From Leeuwenhoekiella sp. (lineage in GTDB: Bacteria > Bacteroidota > Bacteroidia > Flavobacteriales > Flavobacteriaceae), in assembly GCA_002708845.1 (NCBI GenBank), contig PAPI01000032.1, forward strand, positions 1-64,000: a DNA stretch of 64,000 bases. Reading direction: 5' to 3'. Made by a program: the position numbers and the translations under genes. Within the stretch, counting starts at the first letter, position 1, and each line of letters opens with the position of its first letter. The notes below the pieces were generated by a model. It saw only the letters and a list, made by a program, of their open reading frames with translations. It ran no database searches and was not told the origin of the DNA. Below, piece after piece: positions 60,111 through 64,000 of the stretch.

Positions 60111-60141
60111 TTTGTTAACTAAGTAGCTATTTTTATCTTTG
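60111..60141 (+). promoter_or_regulatory. trp operon promoter (TTTG-N19-TAnnTTTG)
   Basis: TTTG at 60111-60114, a 19-base spacer, and TATCTTTG at 60134-60141 match the Bacteroidota primary-sigma consensus exactly. Transcription would start at about 60146-60148, only a few bases before the leader-peptide ATG at 60150. Confidence 0.75.
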
Positions 60142-60149
60142 ATGCACTT

Positions 60150-60197
60150 ATGAAAAACAGAATCACAAATACCTGGTGGTGGATCTCGCAACTTTAA
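60150..60197 (+). CDS. trpL: trp leader peptide with three consecutive Trp codons
   Basis: A 15-residue frame, MKNRITNTWWWISQL then TAA. Trp codons are at 60174-60182. It lies 128 bases ahead of trpE, followed by an intrinsic terminator. In enterobacterial attenuation the ribosome stalls at Trp codons when charged tRNA-Trp is scarce; this peptide has the right form. It is below usual gene-finder size limits. No Shine-Dalgarno site is seen and the promoter places the transcript start almost at the ATG, so translation may be leaderless. Confidence 0.82.
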   Translation: MKNRITNTWWWISQL

Positions 60198-60198
60198 A

Positions 60199-60266
60199 GT
60201 CGTGATGCAACCTCGTATTTGATAAATACAATACTATAAAGGCCTGTCTCACGACAGGCTTTTTTT
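60199..60266 (+). promoter_or_regulatory. trp attenuator: antiterminator strand and intrinsic terminator
   Basis: The terminator is GCCTGTC (60242-60248), loop TCAC, GACAGGC (60253-60259), then seven T. The stem extends on the A/T side. GTCGTGA at 60199-60205, two bases after the leader stop, is exactly complementary to TCACGAC at 60249-60255, which covers the loop and part of the terminator's 3' arm. A ribosome at the stop codon would mask this strand and permit termination; a ribosome stalled at the Trp codons would leave it free to pair and prevent termination. Confidence 0.8.
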
Positions 60267-60267
60267 G

Positions 60268-60286
60268 TTTTCCGCAAAGCGGAAAA
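60268..60286 (+). other. Second hairpin in the trp leader
   Basis: Perfect 8-bp stem TTTTCCGC, loop AAA, GCGGAAAA, one base after the terminator's T-run. It could be a dispersed-repeat hairpin, as its style resembles module A elsewhere, or take part in leader folding or mRNA stability. Confidence 0.55.
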
Positions 60287-60324
60287 AACATGAAACAACT
60301 TAAGGTCGTTAAAACAATAGAAAG

Positions 60325-61722
60325 ATGAAATTCACCCTGAAGACCCACAGTAAAAAAATACTGGCAGATACCATTACTCCGGTTTCGGTTTACCTGCGCT
60401 TGCGCGATAAATTCCCTAATAGCTTACTGCTCGAGAGTAGCGATTACCGGGCCAATGACAATACCTTCAGCTACATTTGCTGCAATCCCATCGCTTCCAT
60501 CTCGGTACAAAAGGAGCAGATCAAAGAAGTTTTTCCTGACGAAAGCATGCAGCATACCCCTATCGATTCAGATACCGATGTGGTGGGGATCATAGAAGGC
60601 TTTGCCCAAAAGTTTGAAACCCAAAACAACGATCGTAAGTTCATTCAAAACGGACTCTTTGGCTATATGAGTTACGATGCGGTGCGCTATTTTGAAGATA
60701 TCGAAATAACTAAAAAGGAAGGCGCACTTGAGATTCCCGACATCTACTATGCGGTGTATCAAAACATCATCGCCATCAACCACTTCAACAACGAAGCCTA
60801 CATTTTTTCGCACACCTATGAGGGTGAAAACAACCTTGATCAAATCGCACAACTGCTTACCGTAAAGAGTTTCGCTGAATATTCGTTTAAGCTGGAAGGC
60901 GAGCGCGAGTCGATAATGACTGATGAAGCCTTTGTTGACCTGGTGCAAACATGTAAAAAGCATTGCCAGCGTGGGGATGTGTTTCAAATTGTACCTTCCA
61001 AGCGTTTTTCACAAAGCTTTAGTGGTGATGAGTTTAACGTATACCGAAGCCTGCGCAGCGTAAACCCGTCTCCCTATCTGTTTTATTTCGACTACGGAAA
61101 CTTTAAAATATTTGGCAGTTCACCTGAAGCACAACTTATCGTTCAGGATGGCAAAGCCGAAATTCATCCCATCGCCGGAACCTTCAAACGTACCGGTAAT
61201 GACGAGCAGGATGCGGCATTAGCCAAAAAATTATCTGAAGACGCCAAAGAAAACAGCGAGCACGTCATGCTGGTTGATCTCGCCCGAAACGACCTAAGCC
61301 GAAACGGAAGTGATGTCAAAGTAGAGACCTACCGTGAAGTACAGTTTTTCTCACATGTGATTCATTTGGTAAGTAAAGTTACCGGAACCAAACATCCCGA
61401 AACCTCAACCATGCGTGTGGTGGCAGACACCTTTCCCGCTGGTACACTAAGCGGAGCGCCTAAACACAATGCGATGAAATTGCTGGAGAACTACGAACCC
61501 ATAAACCGTGATTTTTACGGAGGTGCCATTGGCTTTATGGATTTTAACGGCAATTTTAATCACGCGATTATCATCCGTTCCTTTTTAAGCAAAAATCACA
61601 AATTACACTATCAGGCAGGTGCCGGTGTGGTAAGCGATAGTGTTCCAGAAAAAGAGCTGGAAGAAGTGTATAATAAACTGGGCGCACTCACCAAAGCCCT
61701 CAAACTGGCAGAAGAGATTTAG
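60325..61722 (+). CDS. trpE: Anthranilate synthase component I
   Basis: Converts chorismate to anthranilate with ammonia from TrpG. LLLESSD at 34-40 is the Trp feedback-binding motif, suggesting allosteric inhibition. The chorismate-binding domain has QIVPSKRFSQSF, NPSPYLFYFDYG, IAGTFKRTG, DLARNDLSRNG and FPAGTLSGAPK. Length 465 aa is typical. It is first in the trp operon behind the attenuator. Confidence 0.96.
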   Translation: MKFTLKTHSKKILADTITPVSVYLRLRDKFPNSLLLESSDYRANDNTFSYICCNPIASISVQKEQIKEVFPDESMQHTPIDSDTDVVGIIEGFAQKFETQNNDRKFIQNGLFGYMSYDAVRYFEDIEITKKEGALEIPDIYYAVYQNIIAINHFNNEAYIFSHTYEGENNLDQIAQLLTVKSFAEYSFKLEGERESIMTDEAFVDLVQTCKKHCQRGDVFQIVPSKRFSQSFSGDEFNVYRSLRSVNPSPYLFYFDYGNFKIFGSSPEAQLIVQDGKAEIHPIAGTFKRTGNDEQDAALAKKLSEDAKENSEHVMLVDLARNDLSRNGSDVKVETYREVQFFSHVIHLVSKVTGTKHPETSTMRVVADTFPAGTLSGAPKHNAMKLLENYEPINRDFYGGAIGFMDFNGNFNHAIIIRSFLSKNHKLHYQAGAGVVSDSVPEKELEEVYNKLGALTKALKLAEEI

Positions 61723-61763: not shown

Positions 61764-62342
61764 ATGGCGCAGCCAATTAAAATATTAGTCATCGATAATT
61801 ACGACAGTTTTGTGTACAATCTGGTGCATTATCTGGAAGAGTTAGATTGTGTAGTGACGGTAAAACGAAACGACCAACTCAAACTTGAGGAAGTTGCAGA
61901 CTATGACAAGGTGTTGCTTTCACCGGGTCCCGGTATTCCTGATGAAGCCGGACTTTTAAAAGCGATTATAAAAGAATACGCTCCGTCAAAAAGTATGTTT
62001 GGTGTCTGTCTGGGACAGCAGGCTATCGGCGAAGTTTTTGGCGGAAGCCTAATCAATTTGGATAAAGTTTTTCACGGAGTAGCCACTTCGGCAAAACAGG
62101 TGGTCGATGACGAGCCGCTATTTAGAGACGTTCCGAAGGAATTTGAAATAGGCCGCTATCACTCCTGGGTTGTTGCTCCGGAAGATTTTCCGGAAGAATT
62201 AGAAATCACTTCGGTAGATGATAACGGACAAATCATGTCGCTGAGACATCGTAACTACGATGTGCGCGGCGTGCAATTCCATCCCGAATCGGTACTCACA
62301 CCAGAAGGAAAAAAAATGATCAAAAATTGGGTAAATAGCTAA
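61764..62342 (+). CDS. trpG: Anthranilate synthase component II (glutamine amidotransferase)
   Basis: Class I amidotransferase that supplies ammonia to TrpE. ILVIDNYDSFVYNLVHYL opens the protein, the nucleophile Cys82 is in FGVCLGQQAIGE, and His173/Glu175 are in VQFHPES. Length 192 aa is the usual separate subunit. The gene is 41 bases downstream of trpE. The same protein may serve para-aminobenzoate synthase. Confidence 0.95.
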   Translation: MAQPIKILVIDNYDSFVYNLVHYLEELDCVVTVKRNDQLKLEEVADYDKVLLSPGPGIPDEAGLLKAIIKEYAPSKSMFGVCLGQQAIGEVFGGSLINLDKVFHGVATSAKQVVDDEPLFRDVPKEFEIGRYHSWVVAPEDFPEELEITSVDDNGQIMSLRHRNYDVRGVQFHPESVLTPEGKKMIKNWVNS

Positions 62343-62353
62343 TCGTTTTTCTA

Positions 62354-62470
62354 TTTCCGCCCTTCGACTGTCGCTCAGGCTAGACTTCGGCGGAAATCTT
62401 ATAAAACACAATTACAAACATCAAAAATAATTCTCTCCCCTGGAGAGAGATGCCCAACGGGCAGAGAGGG
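62354..62470. repeat. Palindromic dispersed repeats between trpG and trpD
   Basis: An outer stem TTTCCGCC (62354-62361) and GGCGGAAA (62389-62396) is followed by hairpins CTCTCC/GGAGAG (62433-62447) and GCCC/GGGC (62452-62462). They sit inside the operon and end four bases before the trpD ATG. They are dispersed-repeat in style and create the false upstream Met at 62450. Confidence 0.65.
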
Positions 62471-62473
62471 CTT

Positions 62474-63472
62474 ATGAAAACAATATTAAACAGACTCATC
62501 AATCACGATCAGCTTACCAAAACGGAAGCATGTGAAGTATTGGTCAATATTTCAGAAGGAAAATACAACACCAGTCAGATTGCGGCTTTTATGACCGTAT
62601 ATATGATGCGTAGCATTACGGTTGAGGAACTTGCGGGTTTTAGAGATGCCTTACTTGATTTATGCATCGCTGTTCCCTTTGAGGGATATAATGCGATTGA
62701 TTTATGCGGTACGGGTGGTGACGGCAAAGACACCTTTAACATCTCGACGTTGTCTTCATTTGTTGCGGCAGGCGCCGGAATCCATGTAACCAAACACGGA
62801 AACTACGGAGTCTCCTCAGTAAGTGGTAGTAGTAATGTGATGGAGCATTTGGGTATTAAATTCAGTAATGAAAAGGATTTCCTGAAGCGATGCCTGGATG
62901 AAGCCGGTATTTGCGTATTGCATGCTCCCCTCTTTCACCCGGCGATGAAAAACGTAGGTCCCATTCGCCGCGAACTCGGTGTAAAAACCTTTTTCAACAT
63001 GTTGGGCCCGATGGTAAATCCGGCATTTCCAGACAACCAATTGGTTGGGGTATTTAACCTGGAACTGGCCCGTATGTACGGGTATCTTTATCAAAAAACC
63101 GATAAGAATTTTACCATTTTACACAGTATTGATGGCTATGATGAAATCTCGCTTACCGGAGAGACCAAAGCCATTCGAAACAGTAGCGAACGTATGTTGA
63201 CTGCGGAAGATTTTGGAGTTGAAACCATAAAACAGGAACAGATTTATGGCGGAGACAGTATCGAGTCTTCAGCAGCCATCTTTAAAAAAGTAATCAGTGG
63301 CAAAGGCACCGAAGCGCAAAACAATGTGGTAGCTGCAAATGCAGGAATGGCCATCGCAACGGTAAAAAACCTCGACCCTAAAGCAGGTTTTAACATCGCC
63401 AAAGAATCCCTGCTCAGCGGTAAAGCCTTAGATCGCTTAGAGAAACTAATTCAACTTAGCTCGCGCGTCTAA
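62474..63472 (+). CDS. trpD: Anthranilate phosphoribosyltransferase
   Basis: Adds phosphoribosyl to anthranilate. The PRPP-binding motif CGTGGDGKDTFNIST and KHGNYGVSSVSGSSNVMEHL (where many enzymes have KHGNRA) are present, with GVKTFFNMLGPMVNP and GYDEISLTG later. I start at 62474 (MKTILNRL), 332 aa, because the longer start at 62450 lies in a repeat. It is separated from trpG by 131 bases of repeats. Confidence 0.95.
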   Translation: MKTILNRLINHDQLTKTEACEVLVNISEGKYNTSQIAAFMTVYMMRSITVEELAGFRDALLDLCIAVPFEGYNAIDLCGTGGDGKDTFNISTLSSFVAAGAGIHVTKHGNYGVSSVSGSSNVMEHLGIKFSNEKDFLKRCLDEAGICVLHAPLFHPAMKNVGPIRRELGVKTFFNMLGPMVNPAFPDNQLVGVFNLELARMYGYLYQKTDKNFTILHSIDGYDEISLTGETKAIRNSSERMLTAEDFGVETIKQEQIYGGDSIESSAAIFKKVISGKGTEAQNNVVAANAGMAIATVKNLDPKAGFNIAKESLLSGKALDRLEKLIQLSSRV

Positions 63473-63508: not shown

Positions 63509-64000
63509 TTGAACATTCTAGATAAAATAATAGCAGACAAACGCAACGAAGTAGCCTTGCGCAAACAGCTGATTCCGGTGAGTCAGTTGGAACAATCGGT
63601 GCTTTTTGAGCGTACGAGTCCATCGCTTGCAGAAGCCTTAAAAGCCAGCAATTCGGGAATTATAGCCGAGCACAAACGCCGATCGCCCAGCAAACAGGTG
63701 ATTAATCACAACCTCAACGTGCAGGATGTCGCGCAAGGTTATGAAAACGCCGGAGCCTGTGGGATGAGCGTGCTTACAGATGGCAAATACTTTGGAGGTT
63801 CGCTGGATGATTTACTTTTGGCCCGGGCCTCAAGCAGCTTTCCTTTATTGCGTAAAGAATTTATGATTGATGAATACCAAATTCTGGAAGCCAAAGCATA
63901 CGGGGCAGACGTTATTTTGCTTATCGCTGCGGTACTTTCGCGAAGCGAAATAAAATCCCTTTCAGAGTCTGCGAAGTTCTTAGGAATGGATGTCCTGCTC
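63509..64000 (+). CDS. trpC: Indole-3-glycerol phosphate synthase, N-terminal part (cut by window end)
   Basis: The first 164 codons of TrpC are present and the gene runs off the window. The start TTG gives MNILDKIIADKRNEVALRK. GIIAEHKRRSPSKQ is the substrate-binding motif (usually EFKR or EVKR; His here is uncommon), and MSVLTDGKYFGGSLDDL, LRKEFMIDEYQILEA and GADVILLIAAVL follow. No ATG in frame lies upstream. It begins 36 bases after trpD and completes the visible trp operon. Confidence 0.92.
   Translation, partial: MNILDKIIADKRNEVALRKQLIPVSQLEQSVLFERTSPSLAEALKASNSGIIAEHKRRSPSKQVINHNLNVQDVAQGYENAGACGMSVLTDGKYFGGSLDDLLLARASSSFPLLRKEFMIDEYQILEAKAYGADVILLIAAVLSRSEIKSLSESAKFLGMDVLL

Follow-up and report, generated by a model that had tools for sequence, protein, structure and literature searches.

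A Bacteroid-trp leader upstream of trpE in Leeuwenhoekiella sp.: a very probable ribosome-mediated attenuator

The trp attenuator of Escherichia coli combines Trp codons, a 1:2 hairpin and the competition of an antiterminator with a terminator. In the textbook geometry, the 2:3 pairing, it is the terminator's 5' arm to which the antiterminator binds. For Bacteroidetes, an RNA designated Bacteroid-trp was listed in Table 1 of Weinberg et al. 2010, with 'y' entered for RNA as well as for cis-regulation (PMC2864571), and in a 2019 paper on F. psychrophilum, Bacteroid-trp is referred to as structurally similar to the E. coli leader (PMC6414381).

This paper deals with the trp operon leader of Leeuwenhoekiella sp., contained in a window of 64 kb, the whole stretch of DNA that was analysed. 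We consider it very probable that this leader is a ribosome-mediated transcription attenuator and a member of the Bacteroid-trp family. The assignment rests on comparison and computation, namely on the parts present, their conservation and spacing, a pairing that is better than with swapped partners, and the folding of the nascent RNA; the ribosome footprint, the time order of the events and the response to tryptophan are what we infer.

The trp leader and its RNA family

All features described here are located on the forward (+) strand unless stated otherwise. Reading of the sequence revealed a leader ORF of 15 codons, MKNRITNTWWWISQL, at 60150-60197, with the stop codon TAA at 60195-60197 and three tandem Trp codons (TGG) at 60174-60182, as the earlier note had claimed. 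The antiterminator strand GTCGTGA, identified from the sequence and by comparison with relatives, is present after the leader stop at 60199-60205, separated from it by one base and not by the two bases claimed before. An intrinsic terminator at 60238-60266 is formed by a stem of 11 pairs (60238-60248 with 60253-60263) and the loop TCAC, and its T run consists of seven T at 60260-60266. The target of the antiterminator strand, TCACGAC at 60249-60255, was found where it had been proposed, spanning the loop (60249-60252) and the first three bases of the 3' arm; it is supported by the sequence, by nascent folding and by the relatives. Positions 60253-60255 are used by both pairings, so that the antiterminator and the terminator are mutually exclusive. 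A 1:2 hairpin at 60166-60221, based on folding and on swap and shuffle tests, sequesters the antiterminator strand in the absence of a ribosome.

The terminator is followed by the regulated gene, trpE (60325-61722), confirmed by the Pfam domains Anth_synt_I_N and Chorismate_bind. Downstream of trpE, trpG (61764-62342), trpD (62450-63472) and trpC (63509-64000) were identified, the last of which extends past the end of the window. The TrpE protein is 95% identical to TrpE of two Leeuwenhoekiella species (Flavobacteriaceae, phylum Bacteroidota). Between the terminator and trpE, a short GC-rich inverted repeat, TTCCGCAAAGCGGAA, is located at 60270-60284; four of the six Leeuwenhoekiella relatives lack it, and the remaining two have it in altered form. 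The 5' end of the leader in Leeuwenhoekiella aestuarii and L. marinoflava (L254 and L256, locus positions 475-700) is unlike that of the other four relatives. By eye, the Trp frame in these two is the continuation of a longer ORF, and Trp codons, strand and terminator are all kept.

The Rfam model RF01692 (Bacteroid-trp) matches at 60130-60248 with 53.3 bits (gathering score 49), covering model positions 1-131 of 131 with E = 0.0014 for 64 kb, and it matches only once in the genome. With a score above gathering, a location upstream of trp biosynthesis genes in a member of the Bacteroidota and a short ORF with tandem Trp codons, the trpE leader is an additional member of a known RNA family. Since the match exceeds the gathering score and the family was published in 2010, this attenuator form, for which it had been left undecided whether it was described in the clade, is already described there as RF01692 Bacteroid-trp. 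The Rfam model stops short of the terminator loop, at the last bases of the 5' arm, and therefore it contains no antiterminator. The E. coli-type model Trp_leader (RF00513) reached 22.6 bits, below its gathering score of 41, and the antiterminator was found on the loop and the 3' arm rather than on the 5' arm of the terminator. Besides Bacteroid-trp, neither a T-box nor any other Rfam match at gathering score was identified in the 64-kb window. A weak match to the Bacteroides sRNA BTnc231 is located at 60235-60359 on the minus strand (23.6 bits, gathering score 80.4); it aligns best over the terminator hairpin on the opposite strand and is probably due to chance.

The earlier note had also predicted a consensus promoter upstream of the leader peptide. 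A promoter of the Bacteroidota type was identified, with the -7 box TATCTTTG (TAnnTTTG) at 60134-60141, which is present as an exact box in relatives. A canonical sigma-70 promoter was rejected, since a sigma-70 scan was empty and the Bacteroidota box fits instead. The motif TTTG at 60111-60114, 19 nt upstream of the -7 box, is a candidate -33 box by its motif and spacing. Across 157 leaders, 150 have an exact TAnnTTTG that starts 30-75 nt upstream of the first Trp codon, and in the control stretch 76-110 nt before this codon it occurs in 7 of 157. These box counts, like the first list of matched changes (L104 and L141, see below), derive from a first peptide-picking pass with 157 rows each, in which L048, L070 and L124 were given wrong starts or a wrong peptide, L068 and L148 lacked a peptide and L091 lacked a terminator.

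In F. psychrophilum, the -7 box is positioned at -12 to -5 (PMC9723704), and with the box of the window placed accordingly, transcription would start at about 60146, 4 nt upstream of the leader ATG. The gap between box and ATG in the 157 leaders falls into two groups of 4-12 and 14-22 nt, with a tail of 14 leaders at 28-46 nt; because of these groups, some Bacteroid-trp leaders would be leaderless or nearly so. Flavobacteria are described as being without Shine-Dalgarno sequences, and leaderless mRNAs account for only 5.5% in F. psychrophilum (PMC9723704). Leaders starting a few bases before the ATG of the peptide would thus bear on how the coupling of transcription and translation begins in flavobacteria.

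Spacing and geometry of the strand among relatives

Of 199 genomes sampled from the same family, 141 have an RF01692 match at E <= 0.001, 123 of them above the cut-off. A phylum-wide draw gave matches in 30 of 296 genomes: 28 from the same family (the window genome counted), one from another family of the order and one from elsewhere in the class. Among 14 control genomes, only Bacteroides ihuae had a match. A trpE match was found in 166 of 167 RF01692 stretches (the window and six duplicates counted), the lone exception, L038, being cut by a contig end. After removal of L038 and the six duplicate loci, the comparison consisted of 160 rows, one for the window and 159 for relatives. Of these rows, 159 remained after a second pass; L091 was lost, as no stem passed the filter.

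For the 159 leaders, extraction required an in-frame ORF with tandem Trp codons and a terminator, and within this selection three tandem Trp codons were identified in 154 leaders and two in 5. Conservation of the tandem Trp codons in relatives, which had been proposed as a check, was thus obtained for the extracted leaders. This regular order, with a terminator downstream of an in-frame tandem-Trp ORF in 159 of 160 rows, also speaks against control by a protein or by uncharged tRNA, in a TRAP-like or T-box-like manner with an incidental peptide, even though both features were required by the extraction and the position of the stop varies. Binding sites for proteins may well be conserved unpaired loop sequences, but with no T-box or further Rfam family matched at gathering score in the window, such control is highly improbable.

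The GTGA core of the strand was placed in 158 of the 159 leaders, and it is located 20.2 nt (SD 0.73) downstream of the last Trp codon; here, the main relatives had been selected with an Rfam model that itself contains the strand. L167 was left out of the placement, as no core was found; by eye, its sequence UCAAAGUCUU fits the 5' arm of the terminator in the textbook way. In the same 158 leaders, the distance from the core to the stop codon has an SD of 4.57 and that from the core to the terminator an SD of 4.34. The leader stop occupies three main positions: after the strand, overlapping with it as TCG TGA, or, like the stop of the window, upstream of it. With the general value for the size of the ribosome footprint, a ribosome with the stop codon in its A site would cover the GTGA core in 156 of 158 leaders, and one stalled on the last Trp codon would leave 6-12 nt free before the strand in the 158 leaders. 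The claim that the strand is placed where a terminating ribosome would cover it was therefore borne out for 156 of 158 leaders, but its place tracks the Trp codons more closely than the stop.

The variable stop position also bears on a third kind of control, a TnaC-like arrest peptide, with free tryptophan being sensed by the peptide as it is made. The leader peptide is short and contains Trp, as such a peptide would. However, the residues past the Trp run vary among relatives, as does the stop position, and the operon is biosynthetic with a terminator of the attenuator kind; we give this explanation a very small chance.

To go beyond the Rfam hits, 27 genomes without an RF01692 match were followed among those listed, belonging to the same family or to the neighbouring family f2 (20 of the 58 unmatched genomes of the family draw and 7 of the 266 of the phylum draw). 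A trpE gene was present in 21 of the 27 (TrpE match at E 1e-140 or better), and a leader with tandem Trp codons and a terminator in 18 of these 21. In the other three, L229 has no sequence upstream of trpE on its contig, L240 has a leader visible by eye with a hairpin loop exceeding the length allowed by the filter, and in L242 no tandem-Trp leader with a terminator was found upstream of trpE. Because 18 of 21 unmatched trpE-containing genomes keep these features, RF01692 misses what are, judged by their sequences, real members. In 12 of the 14 same-family leaders of this Rfam-missed set, the best pair begins at +15 to +22 downstream of the Trp run, the exceptions being L227 and L232.

With respect to geometry, the best pair of the strand in the 158 leaders comprises the loop and the 3' arm in 150, the loop and the 5' arm in 7 and the loop only in 1. 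One of the seven 5'-arm leaders, L137, pairs poorly, and the other six have in common the terminator stem CTTATC/GATAAG and a strand GTGAGA or similar; L130, L131 and L141 have this stem too, yet retain the 3' arm. Among the 12 well-placed same-family leaders missed by Rfam, 8 pair toward the 3' arm and 4 toward the 5' arm (L230, L233, L237 and L239), and in the order-level relatives L235, L236, L238 and L241 the textbook pairing with the 5' arm was identified. This lean toward one arm or the other among relatives offers a natural series on how an attenuator functions while its pairing is rewired. It is an even call whether the trp attenuator of Flavobacteriaceae is best understood as a toehold switch with a ribosome ruler, in which the strand would be fixed 20 nt past the last Trp codon while the stop drifts, and the terminator would be recognised via its loop, usually with invasion of the 3' arm and in some lineages with a 5'-arm or re-written pair.

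Folding of the nascent RNA and matched changes in the pair

Folding was calculated at equilibrium for growing lengths of the nascent RNA, pseudoknot-free and with no polymerase speed. With a ribosome on the Trp codons, the antiterminator reached 0.83-1.00 for RNA ends 60252-60257 and 0.91-0.985 at 60258, and it fell to 0.06-0.27 at 60259, where the terminator wins. With the ribosome on the stop codon, the terminator was at 0.96 from RNA end 60256. In the absence of a ribosome, the strand was held by upstream RNA at 0.74-0.82 until 60254, followed by a brief antiterminator phase of 0.77-0.85 at ends 60255-60256 and by the terminator at 0.89 at 60257. Folding of the nascent RNA thus gave the expected states: the antiterminator for the stalled ribosome, the terminator for the ribosome at the stop, and mostly the sequestering hairpin with no ribosome. 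In the full-length RNA, the terminator is preferred in every ribosome state, and for this reason the switch would have to be kinetic.

The sequestering 1:2 hairpin is supported by swap and shuffle tests. The energy of the 1:2 helix was -10.89 for own partners, compared to -9.19 for swapped partners (0 of 200 as good) and -6.68 for shuffled letters, and the strand was held at a mean of 0.81, compared to 0.47 with shuffled upstream RNA, being higher in 154 of 158 leaders. RNAalifold on the relatives gave no long consensus 1:2 hairpin and only a local helix of four pairs, perhaps because the spacer aligns badly.

On this basis, the following course of events is proposed. When charged tRNA-Trp is scarce, the ribosome would stall at the Trp codons and open the 1:2 hairpin, leaving GUCGUGA bare about 7-8 nt past its leading edge. 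GUCGUGA would then pair first with UCAC of the loop and next with GAC of the 3' arm, as each emerges from RNA polymerase; this would block nucleation of the terminator stem, and trpE would be transcribed. When Trp is plentiful, the ribosome would reach the stop codon and cover GUCGUGA, and the terminator would form. Without translation, the 1:2 hairpin would hold the strand, and the terminator would win as well.

The control could be ribosome-mediated with the strand serving solely as the 3' half of the 1:2 hairpin, read-through then being achieved via the stalled ribosome or another pairing. The Rfam structure places the strand inside the 1:2 hairpin, which is itself supported, and the antiterminator loses at equilibrium; these points are compatible with such a role. 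The terminator loop, however, has no role in the 1:2 hairpin, and still 145 of 159 leaders have TCAC as its tetramer. For the same reason of near-constancy, most Rfam-hit rows are little informative on the pairing. Their own pairs had a mean of -9.34 kcal/mol, compared to -9.03 (SD 0.04) with swapped terminators, and 0 of 2000 shuffles matched the own-pair mean, a count that, like those given below, is not a probability, as the rows are mutually related. In 26 Rfam-hit leaders, the loop or an arm is atypical. The own target is a better partner than the consensus target in 5 of these (L104, L118, L139, L141 and L148), an equal one in 3 and a worse one in 18, the target used here excluding the 5' arm; the 18 worse-matching leaders are in line with a strand that serves the hairpin alone. 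Compensating changes were identified in L104 (TTGTCGCAAT/ATTGCGACAA) and L141 (TCGTAAA/TTTACGA).

The Rfam-missed set is a better test of matched pairing than the Rfam hits. In these 18 leaders, own pairs had a mean of -8.96, compared to -6.22 (SD 0.48) for swapped ones (0 of 5000), and for the 14 same-family leaders alone the values were -9.17 and -6.35 (0 of 5000). The own pair is better than the average over the other terminators in 16 of 18, and another genome's terminator pairs still better in 15 of 18, because the loops of some terminators bind more strongly in general. L233 (GGATTCAG/CTGAATCC), L234 (TTTGGAA/TTCCAAG), L231 (TCGCGA/TCGCGA) and L239 (GCGAG/CTCGC) have a re-written pair, located at +18 or +19, and the pairing is poor in L080, L137, L227 and L232. 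On average, own pairs thus exceed swapped ones in both sets, as expected for compensatory changes, but 18 of the 26 atypical Rfam-hit leaders go against this expectation. Where the loop is strongly changed (L104, L141, L230, L231, L233, L234 and L239), the strand has changed to match, which argues for the antiterminator and makes a role of the strand restricted to the 1:2 hairpin unlikely.

As stand-alone evidence, the inverted repeat TCGTGA-N25-55-TCACGA was rejected: it occurs at 4 places in the genome (this one counted), compared to 3 for the reversed pattern. As far as the sequences indicate, the significance of the match between strand and terminator comes from the relatives and not from the repeat alone.

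Comparison with other attenuators

Three further amino-acid leaders were identified as candidates in the same genome. Upstream of hisG (L174, contig C24), a candidate His attenuator consists of the peptide MKAKQLHHHHFYSRTQAR, the strand ACTCAAGCG and the terminator AACCCGTTTGAG(TCA)TTCAAACGGGTT; a scan carried out with no shuffled control gave a His-run leader with a hairpin at 18 of 21 hisG loci (L174 counted). A candidate Phe attenuator, MINFGYFFNRYYFFFFWKETGPL, is located upstream of the prephenate dehydratase gene (L177, contig C22), with a strand CGGGAC complementary to the terminator's 5' arm; here, a scan likewise with no shuffled control gave a Phe/Tyr-run leader with a hairpin at 21 of 24 loci (L177 counted). 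A candidate branched-chain leader upstream of ilvD (L178, contig C1), known from one locus, comprises MKKQVVIIRSIRVIKQA and a GCGGAA strand facing the 5' arm of the terminator. Rfam matches up to E 0.1 were absent for these three loci. The His, Phe and Ilv leaders appear to keep the textbook 2:3 pairing. Conserved hisG and pheA elements are mentioned for F. psychrophilum (PMC9723704).

For Bacteroid-trp, no experiment on the RNA was found among the literature matches listed, and none of these, by title or abstract, deals with its antiterminator, the fixed distance to the Trp codons or the loop-centred geometry; these points may be in print already, and the pairing of strand and loop may be drawn in the supplements of PMC2864571. 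What is added here is comparative evidence for the antiterminator, the near-fixed distance to the Trp codons and the loop-centred geometry. With these, a computationally named RNA family gains a concrete mechanism that can be tested, and the missing half of its switch is proposed.

The structured 5' elements of F. psychrophilum, including those of hisG and pheA, come from the same bacterial family, and leader-peptide attenuation was proposed for amino-acid operons there (PMC9723704); the words "trp" and "tryptophan" are absent from the main text of that paper. The actinobacterial trp attenuators described in PMC1262725 share with the present leader two or three Trp codons, competing hairpins and a GC-rich terminator, but they form a different sequence family, with the complementary triples gGCC-rGCy-GGCC (PMC1262725). 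Compared to RF01692, the leader is alike in score, clade, position at trp genes, Trp peptide and sequestering hairpin (PMC2864571), whereas the loop and the 3' arm paired by the strand fall outside the Rfam model. With the E. coli type, RF00513, it likewise shares the Trp codons, the 1:2 hairpin and the competition between antiterminator and terminator; but where the E. coli antiterminator uses the 5' arm of the terminator, the strand identified here uses the loop and the 3' arm.
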